Source: a virus. Taken from it: 45,737 nucleotides of DNA. A program made the translations under genes and the position numbers. The stretch lies in the IMG/VR virus record IMGVR_UViG_3300042996_000007, positions 1 through 45,737 of that record; one strand, given 5' to 3'. Positions 1,749 through 45,737 of the stretch are shown here, piece after piece. The notes under the pieces are model-generated. The model saw nothing but the letters and a program-made list of their open reading frames with translations. It did no database searches and had not been told where the DNA came from. Every line of letters starts with the position of its first letter. Position 1 is the stretch's first letter.

Positions 1749-1973
1749 GCCTACCACTCTCCGCCGTTGAAGCCACAGGGAGCAACGCCGCCGCCCGACT
1801 GCCCGCCTACCACTGTTTGCCGCCTCAGAGTAGCCACGTTGCCTACCAGAAATCCGCACTCTGACCTGCAGAAACACCACGACCTGCAGAACTACACGAG
1901 TGCAAGTAGTTGACACGCCGCCTACCAGTAGGCACCCTTACGGCAAGCGTTACTTGACAGATAGGCACCTATC
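1749..1973. promoter_or_regulatory. Immunity switch region with repeated operator half-sites
   Basis: This is the intergenic region between divergent repressor and Cro-like genes. GCCTAC half-sites occur at 1749, 1805, 1841 and 1920, in the orientation reading away from the repressor. At 1920-1933 GCCTAC and GTAGGC form a perfect dyad with a CA spacer. A second perfect dyad, GATAGG-CA-CCTATC, lies at 1960-1973. Two TTGACA hexamers (1910-1915 and 1954-1959) are present, but neither has a convincing -10 box at standard spacing, so I cannot place the promoters. Operator function is inferred from the repeats and position. Confidence 0.6.
1863..1891 (+). repeat. 11-bp direct repeat in the switch region
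   Basis: GACCTGCAGAA occurs at 1863-1873 and again at 1881-1891, an 18-bp repeat interval. It differs from the GCCTAC half-sites around it, so it could bind a second regulator such as the Cro-like or excisionase protein. Function unknown. Confidence 0.5.
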
Positions 1974-1986
1974 ACCGGAGGATCAC

Positions 1987-2289
1987 ATGCAGAAGCACAA
2001 GCGCTGGCCGAAAGGGACCTGGATGCGACTCATCAGCAAGGAGCGGCTCGCCTCGTTCGTGGGCGATCCCATCAAGGAGCCCAGCAAGAAGATGAGCGGA
2101 CGGCGCCTCGCGCGCTGCGTCGGGAAGCACCCCTCGTTCATCGATCACCTCCTGTCGGGGCGTCGCAGCTCGTGCGCCCCCCGAACGGCTGAGCTCATCG
2201 CGGAGGCGCTCGACGTGCCCCTCGAGATCTTGTTCATGCCCGAGTCGGCAAGCATTGCTACTCGCTCCAGCAAGGAGCAGGTGGCATGA
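1987..2289 (+). CDS. Cro/excisionase-like helix-turn-helix protein
   Basis: Predicted 100-aa basic protein with an HTH-like region at about 38-80 (GRRLARCVGKHPSFIDHLLSG, then TAELIAEALDVP). The ATG at 1987 is chosen because a perfect GGAGG lies 5 bases upstream (1978-1982); a longer in-frame start at 1900 would read through the operator dyads. As the first rightward gene opposite the repressor it is the natural Cro candidate, though some actinophage excisionases look similar. Its stop overlaps the next start (ATGA), so it heads the early operon. Confidence 0.75.
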   Translation: MQKHKRWPKGTWMRLISKERLASFVGDPIKEPSKKMSGRRLARCVGKHPSFIDHLLSGRRSSCAPRTAELIAEALDVPLEILFMPESASIATRSSKEQVA

Positions 2290-2540
2290 GCCACCACTCG
2301 CAGGCCGGGAAGATCGGCGCCCACTCCCGGTGGGCCCGTGAAGAGGACCGCTCCGCCGCCACCGCGCCGGCGCGGGCGGCGATGTTCCGGAAGTTCGAGG
2401 ACGAGGTCGACCCCGAGCGGGTCCTGCCCGTCGAGGAGCGCGCCAAGAGGGCCGAGTCCGCGCGTCGCGCGCACTACCAACGCCTCGCCATGAAGTCGGC
2501 GCAGTCGAGGGCCGCCAAGCGGCTCAACCGCTCCGCCTGA
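2286..2540 (+). CDS. Conserved actinobacterial small basic protein, unknown function
   Basis: Predicted 84-aa protein, highly charged and mostly helical, with regularly spaced Arg and Ala (for example ARWAREEDRSAA-like and KRAESARRAHYQRLA segments). I recognise the style of small helical ORFs found in actinobacterial genomes and phages, but no function is known to me. It starts with ATGA overlap of the Cro-like gene, and an 83-bp gap follows before the next gene. A nucleic-acid-binding role is possible from the charge pattern but not shown. Confidence 0.65.
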   Translation: MSHHSQAGKIGAHSRWAREEDRSAATAPARAAMFRKFEDEVDPERVLPVEERAKRAESARRAHYQRLAMKSAQSRAAKRLNRSA

Positions 2541-2623
2541 CCCAGCACCACCCCACACAAGCCGGAACCCCCGGCCACAGCTTGGCAGCAGACCAGGGGT
2601 TCACGAACTGGAAGGAGTCTCCC

Positions 2624-2887
2624 ATGACGGAGACCAGCACCACCACACCACCGTTCACCGCAGCGGACGCCGTCACGCTCCTCGAGGAGCACCTCAGCGA
2701 GGTCGGCAAGCACGTCATCCTCGAGACCACCGCGGGCGACGAGGTCCGCGTCCGCACCGAGGTCGACGAGTCCACGCTCTCCGAGCTGGTGATCTACGCG
2801 ATCGAGTCGCGCACCGACGCAGACCTCGGGCGCTTCCGCATCACCGTCACCCGGGTCGACGACGACGGCGCGGAGGTGACCGCATGA
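2624..2887 (+). CDS. Small acidic protein, unknown function
   Basis: Predicted 87-aa acidic protein that begins with a Thr-rich segment, then helical and beta-prone stretches rich in Asp and Glu. The ATG at 2624 is chosen because an AAGGAG ribosome site sits 8 bases upstream; the upstream in-frame TTG at 2582 lacks one. It overlaps the next gene by ATGA. No family recognised. Acidic early phage proteins often act as inhibitors of host proteins, but nothing here shows a target. Confidence 0.65.
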   Translation: MTETSTTTPPFTAADAVTLLEEHLSEVGKHVILETTAGDEVRVRTEVDESTLSELVIYAIESRTDADLGRFRITVTRVDDDGAEVTA

Positions 2888-3225
2888 CCGCCTCCCCCGC
2901 CATCGAGACGATCGGCCGGCAGGCGCCCACCGCGCTCCTCGCGATCGTCCAGCACATCAACGACCACCAGCTCGGCGTCCCGCTCAGCATCCACGCCCCC
3001 ACCGACGCCGCGCCCGCCTTCGGCATCACCGTCGCCTCCTACGGCCTCGACGCCTGGGCCGCTTCCGGGTTCGACGTCACCCACGAGCACACCGAGCTCG
3101 TCGGCGGCCGCGTCCTCGGGTCCCGCTGGGAACGGGTCGTCCAGGACGGGCTGCTCCAGCCGTACGGCGTCCGCGTCCGGCTGACCTCGCACCGTGCAGT
3201 GCCCGCGATGGCGGTGACCGCATGA
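2884..3225 (+). CDS. Hypothetical early protein
   Basis: Predicted 113-aa protein with no recognised domain. The middle contains alternating hydrophobic strands (FGITVASYGLDAW) and the end a segment PYGVRVRLTSHR, suggesting a small alpha/beta fold. ATGA overlaps link it with both the preceding and following genes, so translation is probably coupled across the run from 2624 to 3790. Confidence 0.65.
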   Translation: MTASPAIETIGRQAPTALLAIVQHINDHQLGVPLSIHAPTDAAPAFGITVASYGLDAWAASGFDVTHEHTELVGGRVLGSRWERVVQDGLLQPYGVRVRLTSHRAVPAMAVTA

Positions 3226-3644
3226 GCAGCCAGCCCGACTACGACTGGATGGCCCTGGCCGACGCGTTCGGCGTCAACGCCACCCCCGAGCAGGCAGCCC
3301 CGGCGGCCGAGACCGTCACCAACTGGTCCGCGCACCCGTGCCACCAGCACGAGTTCACCGACCCGGCCCTCGCCGCGATCCTCGCGAACTGGTCCCGCGC
3401 CGCAGCCGGCGCCGACCGCTCCGTCCTCGAGCTGTTCGAGGACCTGGCCGACACCCCGGTGCCCTTCGTCGTCACCGACCACGACGACTGCGCCAACCCC
3501 GACTGCGACCGCCAGGTCTGCATGTGCGACACCCCCTGCCCCGGCGTCTCCGAGCGGTGGTGCCTGCACAACAACGTCCTCTGCGACGACTGCCGCCTCG
3601 AGTGCACCGACTGCGCCAACGACTACCGACAGGACGGTGCCTGA
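3222..3644 (+). CDS. Cysteine-rich (zinc-ribbon-like) early protein
   Basis: Predicted 140-aa protein. The first 80 residues resemble a small helical domain. The last 50 residues hold a dense cysteine cluster with patterns CxxPxC, CMC, CLH, CDDC and CTDC, enough for two zinc sites. No named family recognised. Zinc-ribbon proteins in phage early operons often contact nucleic acid or host polymerase, but that is inference here. Its TGA overlaps the next ATG by one base. Confidence 0.65.
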   Translation: MSSQPDYDWMALADAFGVNATPEQAAPAAETVTNWSAHPCHQHEFTDPALAAILANWSRAAAGADRSVLELFEDLADTPVPFVVTDHDDCANPDCDRQVCMCDTPCPGVSERWCLHNNVLCDDCRLECTDCANDYRQDGA

Positions 3645-3790
3645 TGCGCGAGCACACCGAAGCCGCCTGGGCACGCGCCCGGGCCGTCATCGAATCCGAC
3701 CCGCTGCTCCGCCCGCCGACCCAAGCCGACCGCGACCTCGTCGTCGCGTGCGGCTCCGCCGTCGACGAGCAGATCGCTGGTGCGCGGTGA
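3644..3790 (+). CDS. Small ORF in the early operon
   Basis: Predicted 48-aa protein, short and helical, with no recognised domain. It is supported by one-base overlap with the preceding stop (TGATG) and a four-base GTGA overlap with the nuclease gene that follows. Codon third positions are GC-rich in this frame. Function unknown. Confidence 0.55.
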   Translation: MREHTEAAWARARAVIESDPLLRPPTQADRDLVVACGSAVDEQIAGAR

Positions 3791-4812
3791 GCGAGAACGA
3801 GATCCCGCAGGACGCGCCGCTGATGATCGCCGGTCACGACGTGCCCGAGGTCACTGGTCGACCGATGGACCACAAGGCCCAGCCGAAGAAGAAGGACAAG
3901 GGTCCCATCCCCGCACGGCAGGGCAACGGCTACTACGCCGACCACGCCACCGGCGACCGGCTCCGCTCCGTCACCACCATTCTTGGCGGAGGGGTGCCCA
4001 AGCCGGCGCTCCTGTTCTGGGCCGCGATCACCTGCACCGACTCCGCGATCGAGAACCTCCCCGCCCTGGTGGCCGCGTCACGCCACCCCGAGCGACTCGC
4101 CGAGATGCGCGCATGGATCAAGAACGCCCACACCCGCAAGAAGGACGAGCGCGCCGACGTCGGCACGACGGTCCACACCATCATCGAGTCGAAGCTGCTG
4201 GGCACCCCGATGCCGGAGGCCATCAAGGTCGGCGACGAGCTCGTGCGACTGGACTCCGAGGACCTCGCCCCGTTCGTGCGACAGATCGACCGGTTCCTGC
4301 TCGAGTGGGCCCCGGAGTTCACCGCGTCGGAGATGGTCGTCGCCAACCCCGAGCACGGCTACGCCGGGACGCTCGACTTCATGGTCCGCTCCGACGGGCG
4401 CATCGGGGACTCGCTGCGCGCCGCGGGATTCGTGATCCCCGAGGGGTGTGACCTCATGGGCGACACGAAGACCGGTGGCGACTGGGGCCGGCTGACCTCG
4501 CAGGGTCACGTGCACGGCGTCTACCCGGAGGCAGGCCTGCAGATGTCGGCCTACCGCAAGGCGCTCGTCGCGTGGCTCCGCGACGGGTCACGGGTCACAA
4601 TGCCGGCGACTGCGGAGGTCGGGGTGGTCCTGCACCTGCGCCCCGAGGGATACCGCCTCTACCCGGCCCGGTGCGGCGACGCGGAGTACGCCTACTTCCG
4701 ACACGCGCAGATGGTCGACGAGTGGGCGTCACGGATCGCGTCCGCCAAGGCCGACAACCCGGTCATCGGCAGCCCGCTCGTGCTGCCCGCACCCGCGGTG
4801 GCGGTGGCCTGA
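3787..4812 (+). CDS. PD-(D/E)XK nuclease of the RecB/Cas4-like exonuclease family
   Basis: Predicted 341-aa protein. The family core is visible: VGTTVH with His130, an early acidic residue near Glu189 before HGYAGTLDF with Asp197, GDTKTG carrying Asp226 and Lys228, and LQMSAY with Gln252 and Tyr256. The last fits the QxxxY motif that marks RecB-type nucleases. Such enzymes resect double-stranded ends or process phage recombination intermediates. The GTG at 3787 overlaps the preceding stop. Neighbours include a Gp3-like protein, a DEDDh exonuclease and a RuvC-like resolvase, so this is part of a recombination and DNA-processing set. No RecT/Erf annealing protein is recognisable nearby. Confidence 0.85.
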   Translation: MSENEIPQDAPLMIAGHDVPEVTGRPMDHKAQPKKKDKGPIPARQGNGYYADHATGDRLRSVTTILGGGVPKPALLFWAAITCTDSAIENLPALVAASRHPERLAEMRAWIKNAHTRKKDERADVGTTVHTIIESKLLGTPMPEAIKVGDELVRLDSEDLAPFVRQIDRFLLEWAPEFTASEMVVANPEHGYAGTLDFMVRSDGRIGDSLRAAGFVIPEGCDLMGDTKTGGDWGRLTSQGHVHGVYPEAGLQMSAYRKALVAWLRDGSRVTMPATAEVGVVLHLRPEGYRLYPARCGDAEYAYFRHAQMVDEWASRIASAKADNPVIGSPLVLPAPAVAVA

Positions 4813-5036
4813 TGACGATCTACCAGGTCACCACCGACAGGGCCGCCGTGCCCGCGGCCCGGTTCGCCGCCGACGACCTCGTCGATCTCGGCGCCCAGGT
4901 CGCCAACTACCTCGCTCGGCACCGCGTGCTCTCGCGCGCCGTTCCCTACGACGCCCAGGTCGGCAACGACCACGGCGCCATCCATCAGTCCGGGCTCCAG
5001 CGGCCCGTCACCTTCACCGTCCGCAAGGAGTCCTGA
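4812..5036 (+). CDS. Small hypothetical protein
   Basis: Predicted 74-aa protein starting at an ATG that overlaps the nuclease stop (TGATG). It has a helical centre (DDLVDLGAQVANYLARH) and a beta-prone end (RPVTFTVRKES). No family recognised. Lying between the nuclease and Gp3-like genes, it may work with them, but that is position only. Confidence 0.6.
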   Translation: MTIYQVTTDRAAVPAARFAADDLVDLGAQVANYLARHRVLSRAVPYDAQVGNDHGAIHQSGLQRPVTFTVRKES

Positions 5037-5038
5037 CC

Positions 5039-6190
5039 ATGCCCATCCTCGACATCCAGAAGCGCGCCCGCGAGCTCGGCCGGATCCGCATCGGCCAGGT
5101 CGTCCCGACCGCCAACGGCAAGACCCGGCCCGAGAAGCTCGACCGGTTCCGTCTCACCTCGGCCAGCCGGCCGCTGCTCGAGAAGGTTGCCGAGCTCTAC
5201 GGCGGCGAGGTCGTCCAGTGGCAGCCCCAGGGCGGCGGAGCATCGGCATGGGAGGTCGTCACCGACTCCCGACGCCTCCCGATCATGGTCCCGCCGCAGC
5301 CGGTCACCCAGTGGTACGAGTTCTGGACTGCCGGCGGCTGCAAACACCGTTGCGACGGGCGCACGAACGTCCTGACCGACGAGCTCTGCGACCCGGACGA
5401 CCACGGACACAAGGAGGCCCTCAAGCGGCCCACGACCCGCCTCAACGTGGTGCTCCGCGACGTCGAGGGCATCGGCGTCTGGCGCCTGGAGTCTCACGGC
5501 TGGAACGCTGCCGTCGAGCTGCCCGACTCCGCCGACTTCCTCGCTGCGGCCGGTGGCTACGTCAACGGCTGGGTCTCCCTCGAGGCCCGCACCAGCAAGG
5601 CCGAGGTGCCCGACCGCAATAACGGCGGGACCAAGATCGAGACCCGCCACTTCATGGTCCCGATCATCGAGATCGACGTGACCCCTGCGCAGCTGATGGC
5701 CGGGCGTGGCCGCGTCGCCGCACCCGCGCTCGCCGGCGGCCCGGTCGTCGAGACCCCGGCCCTGGCCGCGGCCGGCCCGGACTACGTCGCCCTGGCCGCC
5801 GAGCTCACCACGGCCGACGAGATCCGCGACCTGTGGCACAAGGCCAACCAGGCCGGGCACATGACACAGGGGCTCTCCGACCACTTGCAGCAGCGCGCGA
5901 CCGCCCTCAAGGAAGCGGGCACCCCGCCCGCCCAGGAGGTAGCGGACGATGAGGTCGCGGTCGGCGAGGTCGTCGAGGACTCCCCCGCAACCGCGGGTGC
6001 CCCAGCGGCAGAGCTCGACCCGGACGTCGTGTGGCAGCAAATCATCAAGGTCGCCGGTGAGGGCGGGATGACGCTGCCCGACGTCCAGGACCACTTCTCC
6101 GCCCGCATGGGAGGCCTGTCGTCGGCCGACGCCTCCGCGGCCGAGCTGCAGGCCTACCTCAACATCCTGGTCGACGGCGTGCCGGCATGA
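5039..6190 (+). CDS. Gp3-like protein (phiC31-type recombination directionality factor homologue)
   Basis: Predicted 383-aa protein. The first 230 residues match, from memory, the phiC31 gp3 / phiBT1-type family: an opening MPILDIQKRARELGRIRIGQ, then TRPEKLDRFRLTS (29-41), the block PIMVPPQPVTQWYEFW (81-96), a probable zinc site (C101, C105, C117 and nearby His), and TRLNVVLRDV. In phiC31 this protein turns the serine integrase toward excision. This window encodes a tyrosine integrase and no serine integrase, so a replication or recombination role is more likely here. Residues 240-383 are Ala/Glu-rich with a possible small helical C-terminal domain. AAGGAG precedes the ATG. Confidence 0.65.
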   Translation: MPILDIQKRARELGRIRIGQVVPTANGKTRPEKLDRFRLTSASRPLLEKVAELYGGEVVQWQPQGGGASAWEVVTDSRRLPIMVPPQPVTQWYEFWTAGGCKHRCDGRTNVLTDELCDPDDHGHKEALKRPTTRLNVVLRDVEGIGVWRLESHGWNAAVELPDSADFLAAAGGYVNGWVSLEARTSKAEVPDRNNGGTKIETRHFMVPIIEIDVTPAQLMAGRGRVAAPALAGGPVVETPALAAAGPDYVALAAELTTADEIRDLWHKANQAGHMTQGLSDHLQQRATALKEAGTPPAQEVADDEVAVGEVVEDSPATAGAPAAELDPDVVWQQIIKVAGEGGMTLPDVQDHFSARMGGLSSADASAAELQAYLNILVDGVPA

Positions 6191-8492: not shown

Positions 8493-8746
8493 TGCCCACC
8501 CAACCCCCAGCAGCCGCCAACGCCCGCGACGTCGACGCCACCATCGAAGATCTCACCTGGCTCGCCGACCACCACGTCGGCGCCCACGAAGCCGCCCGAC
8601 GCGCCGGGTTCCCGACGTACGACGCGCTCGAGAAGTGGTTGCGCCGCTGGGACCGCTACGACCTTATGGCGCGCCTCCGCGCCCACGACCCCATTCCCCT
8701 CGGCCGCTTCCGCCGCGACCCCTACGGCCTCGAGCGGAGCGCCTGA
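8492..8746 (+). CDS. Small HTH-like protein upstream of the WhiB fusion
   Basis: Predicted 84-aa protein. Residues 15-50 read as an HTH-like unit (TIEDLTWLADHHVGAHEAARRAGFPTYDALEKWLRR, in part), similar in type to the domain inside the next gene. It is one-base coupled (TGATG) to that gene. A DNA-binding role is likely but the target is unknown. Confidence 0.6.
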   Translation: MPTQPPAAANARDVDATIEDLTWLADHHVGAHEAARRAGFPTYDALEKWLRRWDRYDLMARLRAHDPIPLGRFRRDPYGLERSA

Positions 8747-9495
8747 TGCCCACCACCAAGATCGGCACCGGGTCCTTCACGCTCAACTGCGACACCGGCC
8801 AGAAGGCAGCCACCGCTCACACCCGGGCACGCGGCGACCTCGCTCAACGCGTCTCGACCTACCAGGAGAACGAGGAGCTCGAGGGCACGCCCTACATGGC
8901 GAACCTGCTCGAGGAGATCAAGCACCTCCGCGCGCGCCTGCAGTCCCAGGCGATCGAGGTGCAGCGTCACGTCGCCCACTGCACCGCCGGATGCACGCGC
9001 ACTAGCGACGGGCTCAGCAACGACGCGTTCAGCAACGACCGTTCACCGGTCCACTCGAAGCCGACCCTCCCACCCATCGCAGAGATTGCGAGCCGAGTCC
9101 GCGCCGGCGAAGCGCTCGTCGTCATCGCCGCAGAGTACGACCGACACCCCTCCACGATCGTCTCGCGACTCACCAAGGCCGGCTACAGCTCCCGCACCGG
9201 CATCGCCGCCCGGGCGCGCGGCCCCGTCCGCGAAGCGCCGGAACCCACGCCGCCTTGGTGGCAGCCCTGGCGCGAGGACGCACTCTGCGCCCAGACCGAC
9301 CCCGAGGGCTTCTTCCCCGAGAAGGGCGGCAGCACCCGGCACGCCAAGTCCATCTGCGATCGGTGCACCGTGGCCGCCGAATGCCTCGACTACGCCCTCG
9401 CCAACCAAGAGCGGTTCGGCATCTGGGGCGGTCTCTCCGAGCGCGAACGACGTCCGCTCACCACCGTCCCGACCCTCCAGGAGAACGCGTCATGA
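8746..9495 (+). CDS. WhiB-family Fe-S regulator fused to an N-terminal HTH region
   Basis: Predicted 249-aa protein. The C-terminal 80 residues are a WhiB domain: C181, then CDRC (C204, C207), then C213 give the four-cysteine [4Fe-4S] pattern, followed by FGIWGGLSERERR. Most WhiB proteins are 80-130 aa and little more than this domain. Here about 165 residues precede it: a coiled-coil-like stretch (about 40-76), a small Cys/His cluster (H75, H78, C79, C83) and an HTH-like segment with a recognition-helix style YDRHPSTIVSRLTKAG (about 110-147). WhiB proteins bind sigma factor region 4 in RNA polymerase. A phage WhiB such as TM4 WhiBTM4 can affect host division and superinfection. Confidence 0.85.
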   Translation: MPTTKIGTGSFTLNCDTGQKAATAHTRARGDLAQRVSTYQENEELEGTPYMANLLEEIKHLRARLQSQAIEVQRHVAHCTAGCTRTSDGLSNDAFSNDRSPVHSKPTLPPIAEIASRVRAGEALVVIAAEYDRHPSTIVSRLTKAGYSSRTGIAARARGPVREAPEPTPPWWQPWREDALCAQTDPEGFFPEKGGSTRHAKSICDRCTVAAECLDYALANQERFGIWGGLSERERRPLTTVPTLQENAS

Positions 9496-10175
9496 CCGAC
9501 CACAGCGCCGAGAAGAAACTCACCGTCCTCAAGCACCTCGCCAGCGGAAAGACCGCCGACGTCGTCGCCACCATCACCCGCCTCGACCGCTACGAAGTCA
9601 TCGACCTCGCCTCCAGCCACGGCTACCCCGACGTCGACAAGATGACCAAGGCCGTTGGGCTGCTCACCGACCGCATCAACCGCGACCGCCAGAGCGAGAT
9701 CCCCACAGCGCAGCCGACGCGGCCGCAGCCGGTGGCCGTTGCCCCGCTCGTCGCGCAGAGGACGCCGCAATCCTCCGGCCCGCTGACGCCGCCCGACGAG
9801 ATCCGGGCCCTCCTCAACACCGCGAAGGACCACCCCTCCAGGCGGATCCAGGCCGCCGCCGACCGGGCCTTCGACCAGCTCGACCGCGTCCGCGCACTGC
9901 TCCGCGAAGACCAGGAGAAGCACGCCGAAAAGCGCGCCGAGCAGGCACGCAAGGCCGCCGCCCGAGCAGAGGTCGAGCGCCTCGAGCGCCAGCTCGCCGA
10001 TGCCAAGGCGAAGCTGCGCGGCACCGCCGCCGCGACGGCCCAGAGCAGCGGCCCTGCCGCCTCCGTGATCCGTGACTGGGCCCGCACCGCCGGTATCGAG
10101 TGCCCCGCCACGGGCAAGGTCCCCCGCTCCGTCCGCGAGGCCTACGACCAGGCACACCACCAGGCCGCCTCATGA
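9492..10175 (+). CDS. Lsr2-type DNA-binding domain protein with coiled coil
   Basis: Predicted 227-aa protein. The last 40 residues (IRDWARTAGIEC, then GKVPRSVREAYDQAH) fit the Lsr2 C-terminal DNA-binding domain, which reads AT-rich minor grooves. A long charged coiled coil lies at about 125-180 (DQLDRVRALLREDQEKHAE onward). The canonical Lsr2 N-terminal dimerisation domain is absent, replaced by a small helical domain (about 5-60) and a Pro-rich linker. It could bind host AT-rich DNA or counter host Lsr2 silencing (inference). ATGA-type overlap with its neighbours. Confidence 0.75.
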   Translation: MTDHSAEKKLTVLKHLASGKTADVVATITRLDRYEVIDLASSHGYPDVDKMTKAVGLLTDRINRDRQSEIPTAQPTRPQPVAVAPLVAQRTPQSSGPLTPPDEIRALLNTAKDHPSRRIQAAADRAFDQLDRVRALLREDQEKHAEKRAEQARKAAARAEVERLERQLADAKAKLRGTAAATAQSSGPAASVIRDWARTAGIECPATGKVPRSVREAYDQAHHQAAS

Positions 10176-10501: not shown

Positions 10502-11148
10502 GCGACACCACCGCGAAGATCCGAGGCAAGGGCCTCGAGCACACCGGCGTCACCGAAGACCACGCCGCCCACATGTACAACAACATCGGCGGCCACTACG
10601 TCGGCGTCGTCGACCTCAAGGTCGTACGCCACTCCGTCGACGACCAAGGCAACCGCTCCGTCGAGCTCGTCATCGACACCATCGAGGTCGCCCCCAACGA
10701 CGACACCGCCGAGCACATCCGCCGCCTCACCCGCGCCTTCCACTACGAACGCGGCCTCGCCGTCAACGGCGGTGACCAGCTCCCCATCGAGGGCAACGAC
10801 GAGCCCACCGTCGAGCAGGTCCGTGCCGCCGGCGCGGCACTCGAAATCCTCGACGACGACGAGGACGACAACCTCGACGACGACCCGGACGTGGACGAGG
10901 AGCCCGACGAGCCCGTCGTCGAGGAGACCGCACAGCTCGACGACAGCCCGCGCGCCATGCTCGACGACCGACCCGCCGACGACGTCTTCGACCCCGCCAA
11001 CCAGCCCCACGACTACGCCGGCACCCCCGGCGACCCCGACGGGTGCAACATCTGCGGCGGCCCCACCAACTGGGGCATCCACGACACCGCCCGCACTACC
11101 ACCAGCCGCGGCGTCCCCAACCCCTTCGATCCCGTCCCCGCCGCCTGA
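10498..11148 (+). CDS. Acidic early protein with C-terminal CxxC
   Basis: Predicted 216-aa protein. The first 110 residues form a beta-rich domain (VVDLKVVRHSVD, SVELVIDTIEVAP). The middle (about 115-170) is almost entirely Asp/Glu with runs of four or more acids. The end has CNICGG with a nearby His, possibly half of a zinc site. The acidic tract resembles DNA-mimic or SSB-like tails, but I do not recognise the family. It sits immediately upstream of the gap before the helicase. Confidence 0.65.
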   Translation: MSDTTAKIRGKGLEHTGVTEDHAAHMYNNIGGHYVGVVDLKVVRHSVDDQGNRSVELVIDTIEVAPNDDTAEHIRRLTRAFHYERGLAVNGGDQLPIEGNDEPTVEQVRAAGAALEILDDDEDDNLDDDPDVDEEPDEPVVEETAQLDDSPRAMLDDRPADDVFDPANQPHDYAGTPGDPDGCNICGGPTNWGIHDTARTTTSRGVPNPFDPVPAA

Positions 11149-11314
11149 ACCACCGCGCGGGGAGTCAACGCCACGCCCAGCCTGCCCAACTCTCCAGGCT
11201 GCAAGCGAACGAAGGGCACCCCCACAGGCCGCGCCACCCTTTCAGCCCGGCCGGTGCTCCTGCTCCCCGCGCGGCACCCCCAACCACCGCCCCACCAACG
11301 ACAGGGACCACCAC
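11149..11314. other. 166-bp noncoding gap with distant inverted repeat
   Basis: I find no convincing gene here. CCGCGCGGGGAG at 11153-11164 is matched perfectly by its reverse complement at 11263-11274, 98 bases apart. The intervening DNA is GC-rich. A folded leader controlling the helicase, or simple chance in GC-rich sequence, both fit. Confidence 0.35.
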
Positions 11315-12919
11315 GTGACGAACGACGGACCACCATCCCGTCACCTCCACCCCGTCGGGCAAGAACCACCCTTCGACCCCGACTACGACGCCAACCCCAC
11401 CGGCGGCACACCCACCAGCAACACCCCACCCGCCGACCGGGCAGCCGAACGCGCCCTCCTCGGCGCCCTCCTCGCCGAACCACAACGCGGCCCCGACCTC
11501 GCCACCCACCTCACCCACACCGACTTCTACTGGCCCCTCCACGGCGACTTCTGGGACCACTGGCACCACCTCACCACCACCACCGGCACCCCACCCGACT
11601 TCGTCACCCTCAACGCCCACTTCCAGACCATCCGCAACGTCGAGCTCGTCCGCCTCGTCCCCGACCTCCTCACCGCCTGCCCCGACCCCCTCAAGGCCGA
11701 GCAGTACGCCACCATCATCCGCAACCACGCCCGCGTCCGAGTCGTCGACGACGCCGCCGTCGGCCTCCGCGACCTCGTCCGCAAGGCCAAGGTCGACCAG
11801 GTCGACGGGTTCCTCGCCGAAGCCCTCCAAAGAGTCGAAGAAGCAGCCACCCGCTTCGGACCCACCACCCCCGGCACCGCCGACACCGGCCTCGCCGACC
11901 TCGCCTGGGTCCTCACCGGCGACCGCCCCGAACCCGTCCCACCCACCTACGCCCGCCGCACCGACGGCACCGCCCTCTTCTACAAGGGCCGCCACAACGG
12001 CGTCTTCGGAGACCCCGAAGGCGGCAAAACCTGGCTCGCCCAAGTCGCCGGCGTCGAAGCCCTCGAAGCCGGCGAAACCTTCGCCATGATCGACGTCGAC
12101 CACAACGGCCAAGACCACACCGCCGCCCGCCTCGCCCTCCTCGGCGTCCCCTGGGAAACCATCGCCGACCCCACCCGGTTCCGCTACTACGAACCCGAAG
12201 ACGCAGACCAGCTCCGCGCCGCCGTCACCGACATCACCAACCTCGCCCCCGCCGTCGTCGTCATCGACTCCCTCGGCGAAATCCTCCCCATGCTCGGCGT
12301 GAAGTCCGTCGACAACGACGAGATCACCGCGGCACTCCGCACCATCGTCATGCCCCCCGCCAAGGCCGGCTCCTGCGTCATCTCCGTCGACCACCTCCCC
12401 AAGTCAGCCGAAGCCCGCACCACCGGGTTCGCCATCGGCGGCACCGCCAAGAAACGCGCCGTCGACGGCGCCTACCTCCGCGTCGAAGCCAAGGTCAAGC
12501 CCGCCCCCGAGTCCGTCGGCCGCATCATGCTCCGCATCGAGAAGGACCGCACCGGCGAACTCCGACGCACCTCCGGCGGCGGCTACGCCGGCACCTTCGT
12601 CCTCGACTCTACCCACGGCCCCCACACCACCACCTGGGCCATCAGCCGCGACGAAGCACCCCGCAACGAGGACGGATCCTTCCGACCCACCAGCTTCATG
12701 GAGAAGGTCGCCACCTACATCGCCGAGAACGACCTCTGCACCCAACGCGACCTCGAACGCGACCTCCCCGGCAAGGCCTCCACCCTCCGCGACGCCGTCA
12801 AGGTCCTCGTCTCCGAAGGCCACGTCGCACGCGTCAAGGGACCCCGCGGAGCCAACCAGCACACCCTCCTCATCCCCTACCGAGAGGCCGAAGATGACCG
12901 CGCCAGCAACCCCCTCTGA
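11315..12919 (+). CDS. Replicative helicase: DnaB-N domain plus RecA-like (RepA/AAA_25) ATPase
   Basis: Predicted 534-aa protein. Residues about 41-145 resemble the DnaB N-terminal domain (AAERALLGALLAEP, then TDFYWPLHGDFW). The ATPase core has Walker A GDPEGGKTW (232-240), Walker B VVVIDSLGE (about 314-322) and a conserved VDHLPKS loop. A winged-helix domain ends the protein (about 460-530). This order fits actinophage RepA-like helicases that load host polymerase. The GTG at 11315 follows an AGGGA site. It is the only replication enzyme in the window, and an iteron-like array follows at once. Confidence 0.85.
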   Translation: MTNDGPPSRHLHPVGQEPPFDPDYDANPTGGTPTSNTPPADRAAERALLGALLAEPQRGPDLATHLTHTDFYWPLHGDFWDHWHHLTTTTGTPPDFVTLNAHFQTIRNVELVRLVPDLLTACPDPLKAEQYATIIRNHARVRVVDDAAVGLRDLVRKAKVDQVDGFLAEALQRVEEAATRFGPTTPGTADTGLADLAWVLTGDRPEPVPPTYARRTDGTALFYKGRHNGVFGDPEGGKTWLAQVAGVEALEAGETFAMIDVDHNGQDHTAARLALLGVPWETIADPTRFRYYEPEDADQLRAAVTDITNLAPAVVVIDSLGEILPMLGVKSVDNDEITAALRTIVMPPAKAGSCVISVDHLPKSAEARTTGFAIGGTAKKRAVDGAYLRVEAKVKPAPESVGRIMLRIEKDRTGELRRTSGGGYAGTFVLDSTHGPHTTTWAISRDEAPRNEDGSFRPTSFMEKVATYIAENDLCTQRDLERDLPGKASTLRDAVKVLVSEGHVARVKGPRGANQHTLLIPYREAEDDRASNPL

Positions 12920-13094
12920 CACCCCCAAACGACTGCGTCCCCAGTGCGTCCCTGACTGCGTCCCCACTGCGTCCCCGGGCAGACGCGAAGCGAGTGCGTC
13001 CCCCGTCCCCCTATCTTCGATGGGGACGCACTCAGCGAGCCCGCCGGGACGCACTGACCAGCGCGTCCCCGAGCGCGTCCCGGCAGGTGCATGA
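12894..13094 (+). CDS. Small ORF that contains the iteron-like repeats
   Basis: Predicted 66-aa protein. Its ATG overlaps the helicase end by 26 bases and its stop overlaps the next start (ATGA), which supports translation. The sequence is low complexity because each DNA repeat encodes Cys-Val-Pro or Arg-Val-Pro; the inverted copies give other residues. The reading frame may be kept open mainly to allow coupled translation across the repeats. No family recognised. Confidence 0.5.
   Translation: MTAPATPSDTPKRLRPQCVPDCVPTASPGRREASASPVPLSSMGTHSASPPGRTDQRVPERVPAGA
12932..13082. repeat. Iteron-like array, candidate replication origin
   Basis: The 11-bp unit WSTGCGTCCCC-type (A-C/G-TGCGTCCCC) occurs in direct orientation at 12932, 12943, 12955, 12966 and 12993, inverted at 13022 (perfect) and 13045 (one mismatch), and as weaker AGCGCGTCCC variants at 13060 and 13072. 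The first four are spaced 11-12 bp, near one helical turn. The copies at 12993 and 13022 form a perfect 11-bp dyad around an AT-richer core (CTATCTTCGAT). Position directly after the helicase gene suggests an origin; this is inference. Confidence 0.55.
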
Positions 13095-13372
13095 CCATGG
13101 CCTTCCCCACCAACATCGGACCCCGCACCCGGCCCGCCTGGGACGCCATCGCCAACACCCTCGCCGACGGCCAGTGGCACACCCACGCCGAGCTCGCCAT
13201 GGAAGCCGGCGCAGAGTCCGACCTCAGCGACAAGTCCATCGACGAGCTCATCCGCAAGGGCTACCGCACCCGGCACTACACCCGCCGCACCAGCAACGCC
13301 CACGGCCACTCCCCGGTTCAGGACGCGGTCTACCGCCTGGTCGACGTCGACCCCAAGGACGGCGCATCGTGA
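13091..13372 (+). CDS. Small winged-helix-like protein next to the iterons
   Basis: Predicted 93-aa protein. Residues 10-50 (WDAIANTLADGQWHTHAELAMEAG) followed by IDELIRKGYRTRHYTRR fit a winged-helix domain, with a strand-like C-terminus. Its start overlaps the repeat-containing ORF. An origin-binding or replication-control role is plausible from position only. Confidence 0.6.
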   Translation: MTMAFPTNIGPRTRPAWDAIANTLADGQWHTHAELAMEAGAESDLSDKSIDELIRKGYRTRHYTRRTSNAHGHSPVQDAVYRLVDVDPKDGAS

Positions 13373-13953
13373 CCGCGAACCCCATGGACCCTCGGCGCTG
13401 CCAGGCCCGGTCGAAGCAGTCCGGTGAGCAGTGCAAGCGGTACGCGATCGCGGGCGGCACGGTGTGCACGATGCACGGCGGGAAGTCGCCGGCGGTCCGT
13501 GCTGCTGCCGAGGAGCGGCTGCTCGTCGCTGCTGCTGACCGGGTCGTCGCCGATCTGTGGGTCGGGCTCGACCAGGCCACCCCTGTGAAGGACCCGGTCG
13601 CGTCGTTGGAGCGGCTCGCGGGTGCGCTTGAGCAGCTAGTCGACGAGACAGGCCGGCAGGTGTCGACGATGAAGAACCTCGCGGGGGGTGGGCACCTGAC
13701 GCAGCTGCGTGCCGAGGTGACGCTCTTCGACCGGGCGTTGGATCGGTTGTCGCGGGTGTTGGTCGACATGGCGCGGTTGGGGATCGCGGAGAAGCACATC
13801 GAGTTGGAGCAGCAGCGTGCGCAGATCATCATCGCGGCGTTTCTCGCGGCGCTCGACCTCGGGGGTTTGGTGCCGGAGGTGCGGACGGCGATGGTCGACC
13901 GGTTCCTGGCGGGGCTGGGCGAGTTGGTGCCCGGCGAGGTGGTCGAGCCGTGA
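13369..13953 (+). CDS. HGGxxP-motif zinc protein, possible terminase small subunit
   Basis: Predicted 194-aa protein. The N-terminus has a Cys/His motif, CQARSKQSGEQC then VCTMHGGKSP (about 11-42), seen in many actinobacterial phage proteins. Helical segments follow (45-110 and 120-175). Such proteins often lie upstream of terminase and are sometimes called small subunits, but the large subunit here is 4.9 kb away. Codon use differs from its neighbours, with more TTG and GGT and a clear G bias on this strand, suggesting separate origin. Start at GTG, four-base overlap with the previous stop. Confidence 0.55.
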   Translation: MTANPMDPRRCQARSKQSGEQCKRYAIAGGTVCTMHGGKSPAVRAAAEERLLVAAADRVVADLWVGLDQATPVKDPVASLERLAGALEQLVDETGRQVSTMKNLAGGGHLTQLRAEVTLFDRALDRLSRVLVDMARLGIAEKHIELEQQRAQIIIAAFLAALDLGGLVPEVRTAMVDRFLAGLGELVPGEVVEP

Positions 13954-44181: not shown

Positions 44182-44283
44182 ATGCAACCCGACGAGTGGA
44201 CCGACCTCGACGACGCCTACCTACAGATCTTCGGCGAACACCCCGAGCTCGATGAAGCGCCCGGCTTCATCGGTCGAGAGTGA
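44182..44283 (+). CDS. Possible 33-aa acidic ORF
   Basis: Predicted 33-aa peptide (DEWTDLDDAYLQIFGEHPEL). It overlaps the end of the convergent DUF3263 gene by 17 bases. It lacks a strong ribosome site. Kept as a low-confidence call because codon use fits. Confidence 0.3.
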   Translation: MQPDEWTDLDDAYLQIFGEHPELDEAPGFIGRE

Positions 44284-44521
44284 AGGTCGCCGCCGCGCGC
44301 TCGCGCTGCAGCCTCCGGGCCGCGCGGAGCCGCCGAAGCCGGCGCACCGTCATCGGGTACGCCGCCAGTGCCTCGGGCCGCTCGATCAGCGCGTTGAGCT
44401 CCTGGTAGTACCGCGTCGAGCTGACCCCGAAGTGCTCGCGCACGTGCTCCTCCTTCGCCCCGGCGTACTTCCACCACGACGTCTCAAGGTCCAGCATCAT
44501 GTGCTCCCGAACGCTCAGCAC
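44267..44521 (-). CDS. DUF3263 protein
   Basis: Predicted 84-aa protein. MMLDLETSWWKYAGAKEEHVREHFG followed by YYQELNALIERPEAL is the DUF3263 pattern, a small actinobacterial helical domain likely to bind DNA as an HTH. It is downstream of the integrase in the same direction, and its start overlaps the previous stop. It could control integration or lysogeny (inference). Confidence 0.82.
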   Translation of the reverse strand: MLSVREHMMLDLETSWWKYAGAKEEHVREHFGVSSTRYYQELNALIERPEALAAYPMTVRRLRRLRAARRLQRERAAATFTLDR

Positions 44522-44831: not shown

Positions 44832-45737
44832 TCACAGGTTGTCCATCGGCGAGCGGCCCTTGTAGGCCTCCCGGGCACGCTCGGCCCGCGTCGCCGCCGC
44901 GTAGCGCGTCAGCATCTGCCGCGACCGCCACCCCGCGAGTTCCATCAGGTCACCCTCCGCACCACCGGCGCGCAGCCACGCGTCAGCGAACCCGTGCCGG
45001 AACATGTGCGCGTGCAGGCCCTCGACCCCAGCCTGCTTGCCGCGGCGCCGCAACATCTGCTTCACCGCATCAGGCGTCAGCCCCCGACCGTCCTTGCCCG
45101 AGAGCCACAGCCACGGCCCCTCGGCGTACGGCTGACGCCCGCGGATGCGCAGGTACCGGTCGAGGGCGCGGGCGGTCCTAGCGCCGAACGGCAGCACCCG
45201 TTCGCGGCGACCCTTGCCGGTGATCAGGAGGGTGCGCTGGCGCAGGTCGAGGTTGGCGACCTCGGCGAGGGCGATCTCTGAGAGCCGGCCTCCGGTGTCG
45301 GCGTACAGCAGGATCAGTGCCTCGTCGCGGCGGTCGATGAGCAGCGGCCCCTGGCAGGCTGCGATCACGTCCTTGAGCTGCTCGACGGTGAGCATCTGCA
45401 CGAGCTTCTCCGGCAGCGCTGGCGCGGTGACCGCGGCCATGGGGTTGACCTCGAGCTCCCCTTCGGCCAGGCACCAGGCGAAGAACGACCGCAGCCCGTT
45501 CCACCTGGTCCTGGCGGTCGAGGCGGATCGGGTCTCGCGCAGCTCGACGAGCCACTCGCGCAGCTGCGTCACGGTGACCTCGTCGGGTGCGATCTTCTGG
45601 TCGTGGTCGAGGAGCCAGCGCACGAGGAGGTCGAGGGACTCGCGGTAGTTGCCTACGGTGCGGGGAGACTTATTCTCGGCCTCGAGGGTGAGGGTCCAGG
45701 AGTCGAGGAGCGCGGTGAACGAGGGGATGGTGGTCAT
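44832..45737 (-). CDS. int: Tyrosine integrase (XerC/D-like recombinase)
   Basis: Predicted 301-aa recombinase. A SAM-like core-binding domain (about 1-95) precedes the catalytic domain with Arg151 (TGGRLSEI), Lys175 (GKGRRER), His244-x-x-Arg247 (HMFRHGF), Trp270 in the usual His/Trp place, and the nucleophile Tyr279 (TRYAAAT). It lacks the arm-binding N-terminal domain of lambda Int, so it is short like Xer proteins. It inserts the phage at an attachment site not visible here. The start codon is the last triplet of the window. In a circle it would follow the DUF2510 gene directly. Confidence 0.92.
   Translation of the reverse strand: MTTIPSFTALLDSWTLTLEAENKSPRTVGNYRESLDLLVRWLLDHDQKIAPDEVTVTQLREWLVELRETRSASTARTRWNGLRSFFAWCLAEGELEVNPMAAVTAPALPEKLVQMLTVEQLKDVIAACQGPLLIDRRDEALILLYADTGGRLSEIALAEVANLDLRQRTLLITGKGRRERVLPFGARTARALDRYLRIRGRQPYAEGPWLWLSGKDGRGLTPDAVKQMLRRRGKQAGVEGLHAHMFRHGFADAWLRAGGAEGDLMELAGWRSRQMLTRYAAATRAERAREAYKGRSPMDNL

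Follow-up and report, generated by a model that had tools for sequence, protein, structure and literature searches.

A repeat array directly downstream of a phage helicase gene is probably the replication origin of a temperate phage of the Nocardioides type, with the phage's own helicase as the initiator, based on comparison of the sequence with its relatives. The array lies in the window, which is the whole stretch of 45,737 nucleotides of viral DNA analysed here (IMG/VR record IMGVR_UViG_3300042996_000007, positions 1 to 45,737). In the best reading, the array is a predicted origin to which a DnaB/RecA-type initiator helicase binds through its C-terminal winged helix. The preliminary description had proposed a helicase-loading origin here; this is supported over its rivals by a conserved layout, by occurrence on small plasmids, and by covariation between the repeat word and the winged helix, and initiation itself would be the presumed outcome.

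Genome context

The left part of the window carries genes for a recombination directionality factor, an exonuclease, a Holliday-resolvase-like protein, WhiB, and an Lsr2-like protein. Terminase and portal genes are in the middle and an integrase gene is at the right end (44832-45737). Among the genes examined, none was recognized as encoding a DNA polymerase, a dedicated primase, a helicase loader, or a separate initiator. The WhiB-family gene (8746-9495, within ORF 8635-9495; Pfam Whib, E 6e-25) is in the early region, and 9492-10175, just upstream of the replication genes, encodes an Lsr2-like DNA-binding C-terminus; in phage MinS1 an Lsr2 family gene is also annotated upstream of the helicase. 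The recombination directionality factor-like gene (5039-6190; Gp3 match, E 7e-42) is far from the integrase gene, which is adjoined by a DUF3263 gene (44267-44521) that is possibly host DNA at the prophage edge.

The helicase gene and the repeat array

The helicase frame ends at a stop at 12919 and its most likely start is the GTG at 11315, predicting a protein of 534 aa. It matches DnaB (E 5e-13) and AAA_25 (E 6e-4) in Pfam, is assigned as a DnaB-like helicase in PHROG, and matches DnaB and RecA among PDB profiles. In both Pfam and the PDB profiles, it is AAA_25 and RecA that the core matches, not the DnaB C-terminal family. The ATPase core was poorly modelled by AlphaFold at full length until a deeper alignment was used; in the winged helix the block means are mostly 80-97. 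The features of the locus are listed in the table.

Features of the helicase gene, the repeat array, and the adjoining frames, with positions in the window.
Feature	Position	Strand	Basis
Putative initiator-helicase gene; 534-aa product with a DnaB-type N-terminal domain, a RecA-type ATPase core, and a C-terminal winged helix	11315..12919	+	Pfam, PHROG, AlphaFold, PDB profiles
DnaB N-terminal (primase/loader-contact) domain, residues 38-136	11426..11722	+	PF00772 E 5e-13; helices pLDDT 73-89
C-terminal winged helix, residues 459-518: H1 459-471, H2 477-483, H3 488-500, wing 504-518	12689..12868	+	AlphaFold; 52-element alignment
Winged-helix residues 477-492, covarying with positions 4-7 of the repeat (position 5: E481; position 6: R492 and A488)	12743..12790	+	Mutual information against phylogenetic null
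66-codon bridge ORF spanning the whole array; its ATG lies within the end of the helicase gene and its stop overlaps the start of the next gene (ATGA)	12894..13094	+	ORF call; openness in relatives
Four direct repeats TGCGTCCC (12934, 12945, 12957, 12968)	12934..12975	+	Same block in relatives
Outer 5-bp stem, left strand CGGGC	12976..12980	+	Counterpart stems in relatives, read by eye
Hairpin dyad GAGTGCGTCCCC / GGGGACGCACTC, inner partial copy CGTCCCCC, tip TATCTTCGAT	12992..13033		Perfect 12-bp inverted repeat; same dyad, with other words, in relatives
Outer stem, right strand GCCCG	13039..13043	+	Read by eye
Additional inverted repeat copy	13046..13053	-	Word search
Two distal near copies CGCGTCCC (13062-13069, 13074-13081)	13062..13081	+	Array count
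Next gene, 93 aa, possible small DNA-binding protein	13091..13372	+	Sub-threshold Pfam match only

The word TGCGTCCC occurs nine times in the 45.7-kb window, with seven of these occurrences within 120 bp. These seven exact copies are on the plus strand at 12934, 12945, 12957, 12968, and 12995 and on the minus strand at 13023 and 13046. Together with the near copies, CGCGTCCC, at 13062 and 13074, there are nine copies past the helicase, spanning 12934-13081, as had been described from the sequence. The report of four copies at 11-12 bp is also correct: the first four are separated by 11, 12, and 11 bp, about helical-turn spacing, near the putative initiator gene. Of the perfect dyad around an AT-richer core, the dyad itself stands (12992-13003 and 13022-13033, perfect across 12 bp with an 18-nt centre), whereas the centre, CGTCCCCCTATCTTCGAT, is only mildly enriched for AT. 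No strongly AT-rich stretch was seen in the array, the dyad tip being only mildly richer than its flanks.

The array is the densest 8-mer cluster of the window, and its word recurs eight times outside its own hairpin, compared with at most once in shuffles of the same region. No Rfam family was matched at the array region and no DnaA-box cluster was found. The GC skew steps at the array from -0.29 to approximately 0, with no clean sign change along the genome. Over 11000-13500, where it goes from -0.38 in the helicase gene to approximately 0 past the array, the step is the steepest of the window, and a step in the same direction is present in 34 out of 43 relatives.

Conservation of the array layout in relatives

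Comparisons were made with about 50 related viruses and plasmids, taken from viral contigs, named Nocardioides genomes, and genome searches. The same RecA-type helicase is followed by this array layout in dozens of phages and prophages, of Nocardioides and others, as well as on two small plasmids and distant viral contigs. In the first relative, L002, which is 74 % identical over the aligned ATPase/winged-helix region, the array is in the same place and all of its copies, including the dyad, are GTGTCCC. The L002 helicase (1958-4906) is 982 aa, due to an intein-like insert that splits the ATP-binding loop (GDPESGK | ... HN | TWLAQ); the window helicase is without this insert.

Within any one element the word is uniform, while between elements it differs. 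The words across the relatives are GTGTCCC, GGTTCCC, TCGTCCC, TCGCCC, CTTTCCC, AGTTCCC, and AAAATCACG, with GTGGTTCCC, GTGGGTCCC, TGCGGCCC, GTGCGTCGG, CTGTCGCG, CCTCGTCCC, CCTCGCCCC, ACCCTTTCCC, and GCTCCTCCC listed for further relatives. The geometry of the array is stable. Direct copies are 10-12 bp apart (the commonest spacing, 43 elements), the hairpin copy commonly lies 38 bp (35-38) beyond the third copy, and the inverted copy is approximately 28-30 bp further on, followed by one or two more. In relatives the dyad contains a second, partial copy of the word, and both strands of its outer stem change, read by eye as AGGGC/GCCCT, CGGGC/GCCCG, and, in L029, AGGCC/GGCCT.

Where the ATPases of relatives end in another C-terminal domain (L039, L073, L083, and L099, for example), there is no array within 500 bp of the stop. 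The position of the array is otherwise not fixed. In L043 it is inside the helicase gene, and in L056 (4782-4881) and L060 (4734-4833) there is no 3′ array; instead, it is 1.2 kb downstream of the helicase, behind intervening sequence. These displaced arrays carry the word of L105, the recognition helix of which matches theirs.

A set of 2.9 million viral contigs was scanned for three hairpin words alone, identifying 17 stretches, several of which were already known loci. In 14 of the 17, the hairpin sits 9-113 bp after a protein of this helicase type; an ATPase of this type was detected upstream by HMM in 13, and for the fourteenth, L135, a winged-helix-like end at 83 bp was judged by eye. 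In L126, a GTGTCCC hairpin (436-471) is on a 174-kb viral contig with no such helicase in the fetched stretch, which could be due to chance or to a borrowed origin.

Covariation of the repeat word and the winged helix

Alignments by word and by winged helix were made for 52 elements, with the repeat register set by hand. Tree-free mutual information is dominated by phylogeny at word positions 2-4, therefore a simulated null was used, with word evolution simulated on the ATPase-core tree for 43 non-redundant elements and the maximum taken over 263 columns. Against this null, word position 5 covaries with residue 481 (family-wise p=0.019), position 6 with residue 492 (family-wise p=0.037), and CG at positions 5-6 with residue 481 (p=0.0013). 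With residues 478 and 487 as their best columns, positions 4 and 7 fail the family-wise correction when taken alone (p 0.18 and 0.41), and positions 1-3 simply track phylogeny. For every word position tested, the best column falls in the winged helix, and in confident models the covarying residues belong to H2 and to the beginning of H3, the recognition helix.

The pairings can be read from individual elements. In the GTGTCCC elements that belong to the clade of the window, there is a KD near the start of the recognition helix; L002, for example, has GTGTCCC with the helix start AKDK, which is common to other GTGTCCC elements. Most elements with CG at positions 5-6 have Glu 481 and Arg 492, while GGTTCCC and AGTTCCC elements are without Arg at 492. 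One subgroup pairs GKAEWVR with TCGTCCC, GKREFVR with TCGCCC, GKTEWVL with CTTTCCC, and GRREWVL with GTTCCC, and in the distant L097 GKREYVR is again paired with TCGCCC. The new distant matches from the hairpin scan mostly obey this code: L139 has both the Glu and the Arg with GCGT, and L136 and the group of L127, L130, and L134 have GGTT without the Arg, although L137 has the Arg only, the expected Glu at 481 being missing.

It is likely, from the sequence comparisons, that the repeat word is recognized by the helicase's own C-terminal winged helix. The helicase and the protein encoded at 13091 had both been suggested as binders. Of the two, the helicase C-terminus is the likely reader; the 13091 gene is not conserved beside the array, and other genes follow the array in relatives. 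The sole viral match to a query with the 13091 protein, L003, is spurious.

Covariation is evidence of recognition rather than of replication, and the same pattern would be given by an autoregulatory operator, at which the winged helix regulates transcription or translation of its own operon while replication starts elsewhere. The array is flanked by genes of a single operon, and in the mRNA the dyad could fold as a hairpin. However, an operator is unlikely. The array is 3′ of the gene for the regulator, it may be as far as 1.2 kb away (L056) or within the helicase gene (L043), and neither a sigma-70-like promoter nor an intrinsic terminator was found in the array region. The two 10-bp arms of the dyad match exactly, with zero G-U pairs, in 14 aligned elements, as for DNA sites. 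Such arrays serve as origins for known proteins with this overall design (PMC7581432, PMC4234260).

The open frame through the array

The repeats had been described as lying inside an open frame coupled to the genes on both sides, which is upheld here. All nine copies are inside the bridge ORF, which overlaps both neighbouring genes. The bridge frame was investigated in 38 elements, of which 31 were testable, with an out-of-frame ATG no more than 30 nt ahead of the stop codon of the helicase gene. Every one of the 31 has this frame open through the hairpin, whereas shuffles predict 18.1 (sd 2.4), and for 25 of them its stop codon overlaps a further start codon (background 31 %). The view of the bridge ORF as a mere by-product of high GC is reversed by this shuffle result. 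In pKRAD02 and some others the array is within the ATPase frame itself.

The consistently open frame would also be expected if the repeats were by-products of a selected, repetitive protein of 66 aa, yet this is very improbable. GC by codon position in the bridge ORF of the window is 0.72/0.72/0.72, unlike the phage's genes, and the codon composition of the bridge frame, 0.68/0.64/0.72, is not gene-like. The peptide shows no conservation among relatives and has no Pfam or PHROG match, and an indel between the window and L002 shifts how the core is read in this frame. In addition, the repeat spacing is not a multiple of three, therefore the copies are read in different frames. It seems that the openness of the frame is maintained while its peptide is not under selection. 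Ribosomes crossing it would probably keep the operon transcript translated through a structured, C-rich stretch, and a guess at the reason for the open frame is that premature transcription termination is avoided.

Arrays on plasmids

The two small plasmids are pKRAD02 (12.9 kb, Kineococcus), in which the ATPase gene contains the array within its 3′ end, and p-XQ-29-C (7.9 kb, Streptomyces), in which the array follows a homologous ATPase gene with a different C-terminus. No terminase, capsid, or other phage gene is among the annotated genes of either plasmid, the gene tables of which are incomplete. The presence of the array on plasmids without annotated terminase or capsid genes therefore argues against packaging and for replication. 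A packaging (pac/cos) site, with the small terminase-like protein from 13369-13953 as its binder, might be suggested by the large terminase and portal genes 6-7 kb downstream and by the PHROG 3678 gene close behind the array, but with the plasmid arrays and the covariation of the word with the helicase winged helix there is very little probability of this. A centromere-like partition site (parS) is the least credible of the possibilities: short direct repeats do occur in the phage genome and eight 8-bp direct repeats bind ParB in extrachromosomal mycobacterial prophages (PMC7157519), but here there is an integrase gene, no ParA or ParB was identified among the genes scanned, and the array follows a helicase rather than ParB.

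Proposed mechanism and significance

For the array as an origin, a model can be proposed in which several helicase subunits would bind the phased direct copies via their winged helices. The dyad may nucleate assembly on its opposed copies and then melt or extrude, the RecA-type ring would close around the exposed strand, and the DnaB-like N-terminal domain would recruit host primase.

On balance, the evidence favours an undescribed, large class of replicon in Actinobacteria and beyond, in which a RecA-type motor with a winged helix would read a cis iteron-hairpin origin. Many members would have the DnaB-like N-terminal domain, the specificity would be legible from covariation (E481/R492 with CG, non-Arg 492 with GTT, and KD with GTGT), and the bridge frame would be open with its peptide irrelevant. 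For most of the actinobacterial temperate phages that lack a recognizable initiator or loader, little is known of how replication starts; a concrete candidate origin and initiator are offered here. The specificity code would predict which helicase reads which origin. It would allow annotation of origins from sequence, compatibility grouping, and the spotting of satellites that borrow the origin of a helper, as well as the building of orthogonal replicons for poorly tractable hosts. The bridge ORF poses the further question of why ribosomes should cross an origin.

Comparison with known replication systems

In phage P4, the alpha protein binds iterons by its C-terminal domain and unwinds DNA, with its own primase and an SF3 helicase. 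The proposed system would work alike with an unrelated helicase fold, and its N-terminal domain is DnaB-like. The iterons of lambda are embedded in translated sequence, as they are here, but within the O gene itself. The O protein, a separate initiator, depends on P and on host DnaB.

The Rep helicases of staphylococcal islands have a C-terminal domain that reads iterons just downstream of their own gene (PMC7581432). The array of the window resembles SaPI Rep/ori and SCCmec Cch2 in being directly downstream of the helicase gene and, as predicted here, in being read by the C-terminal domain of that helicase. SaPI Rep, Cch, and Cch2 are of DUF927 type or primase-associated, in contrast to the RecA-type core and DnaB-type N-terminal domain found here, and a composite hairpin and bridge ORF such as those of the window are not described for SaPI Rep and Cch2 in that text (PMC7581432). 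There is no sequence homology to the SaPI Rep, Cch, and Cch2 helicase families; it is DnaB and RecA that are matched in the Pfam, PDB, and fold comparisons.

The origin of Streptomyces plasmid pWTY27 combines short direct repeats of GTGGGAAC/TTCCCAC with a long inverted repeat, and RepA (522 aa) binds and footprints both (PMC3583192). This is likewise an actinobacterial short-repeat origin with an inverted repeat adjoining the rep genes, although a separate primase-polymerase gene, repB, is needed in pWTY27 (PMC3583192). For the archaeal plasmid pRN1, a stem-loop located 3′ of the gene for its winged-helix replication protein is essential (PMC4234260). Its ORF904 protein is a primase-polymerase with an SF3 helicase and iterons are absent from pRN1, but ORF904 and phage BIP-1 share with the present system the C-terminal winged helix and a stem-loop just 3′ of the gene, conserved in structure and not in sequence (PMC4234260). 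Beside these, the system of the window would be an initiator helicase and iteron origin of a known kind, on a new DnaB/RecA chassis.
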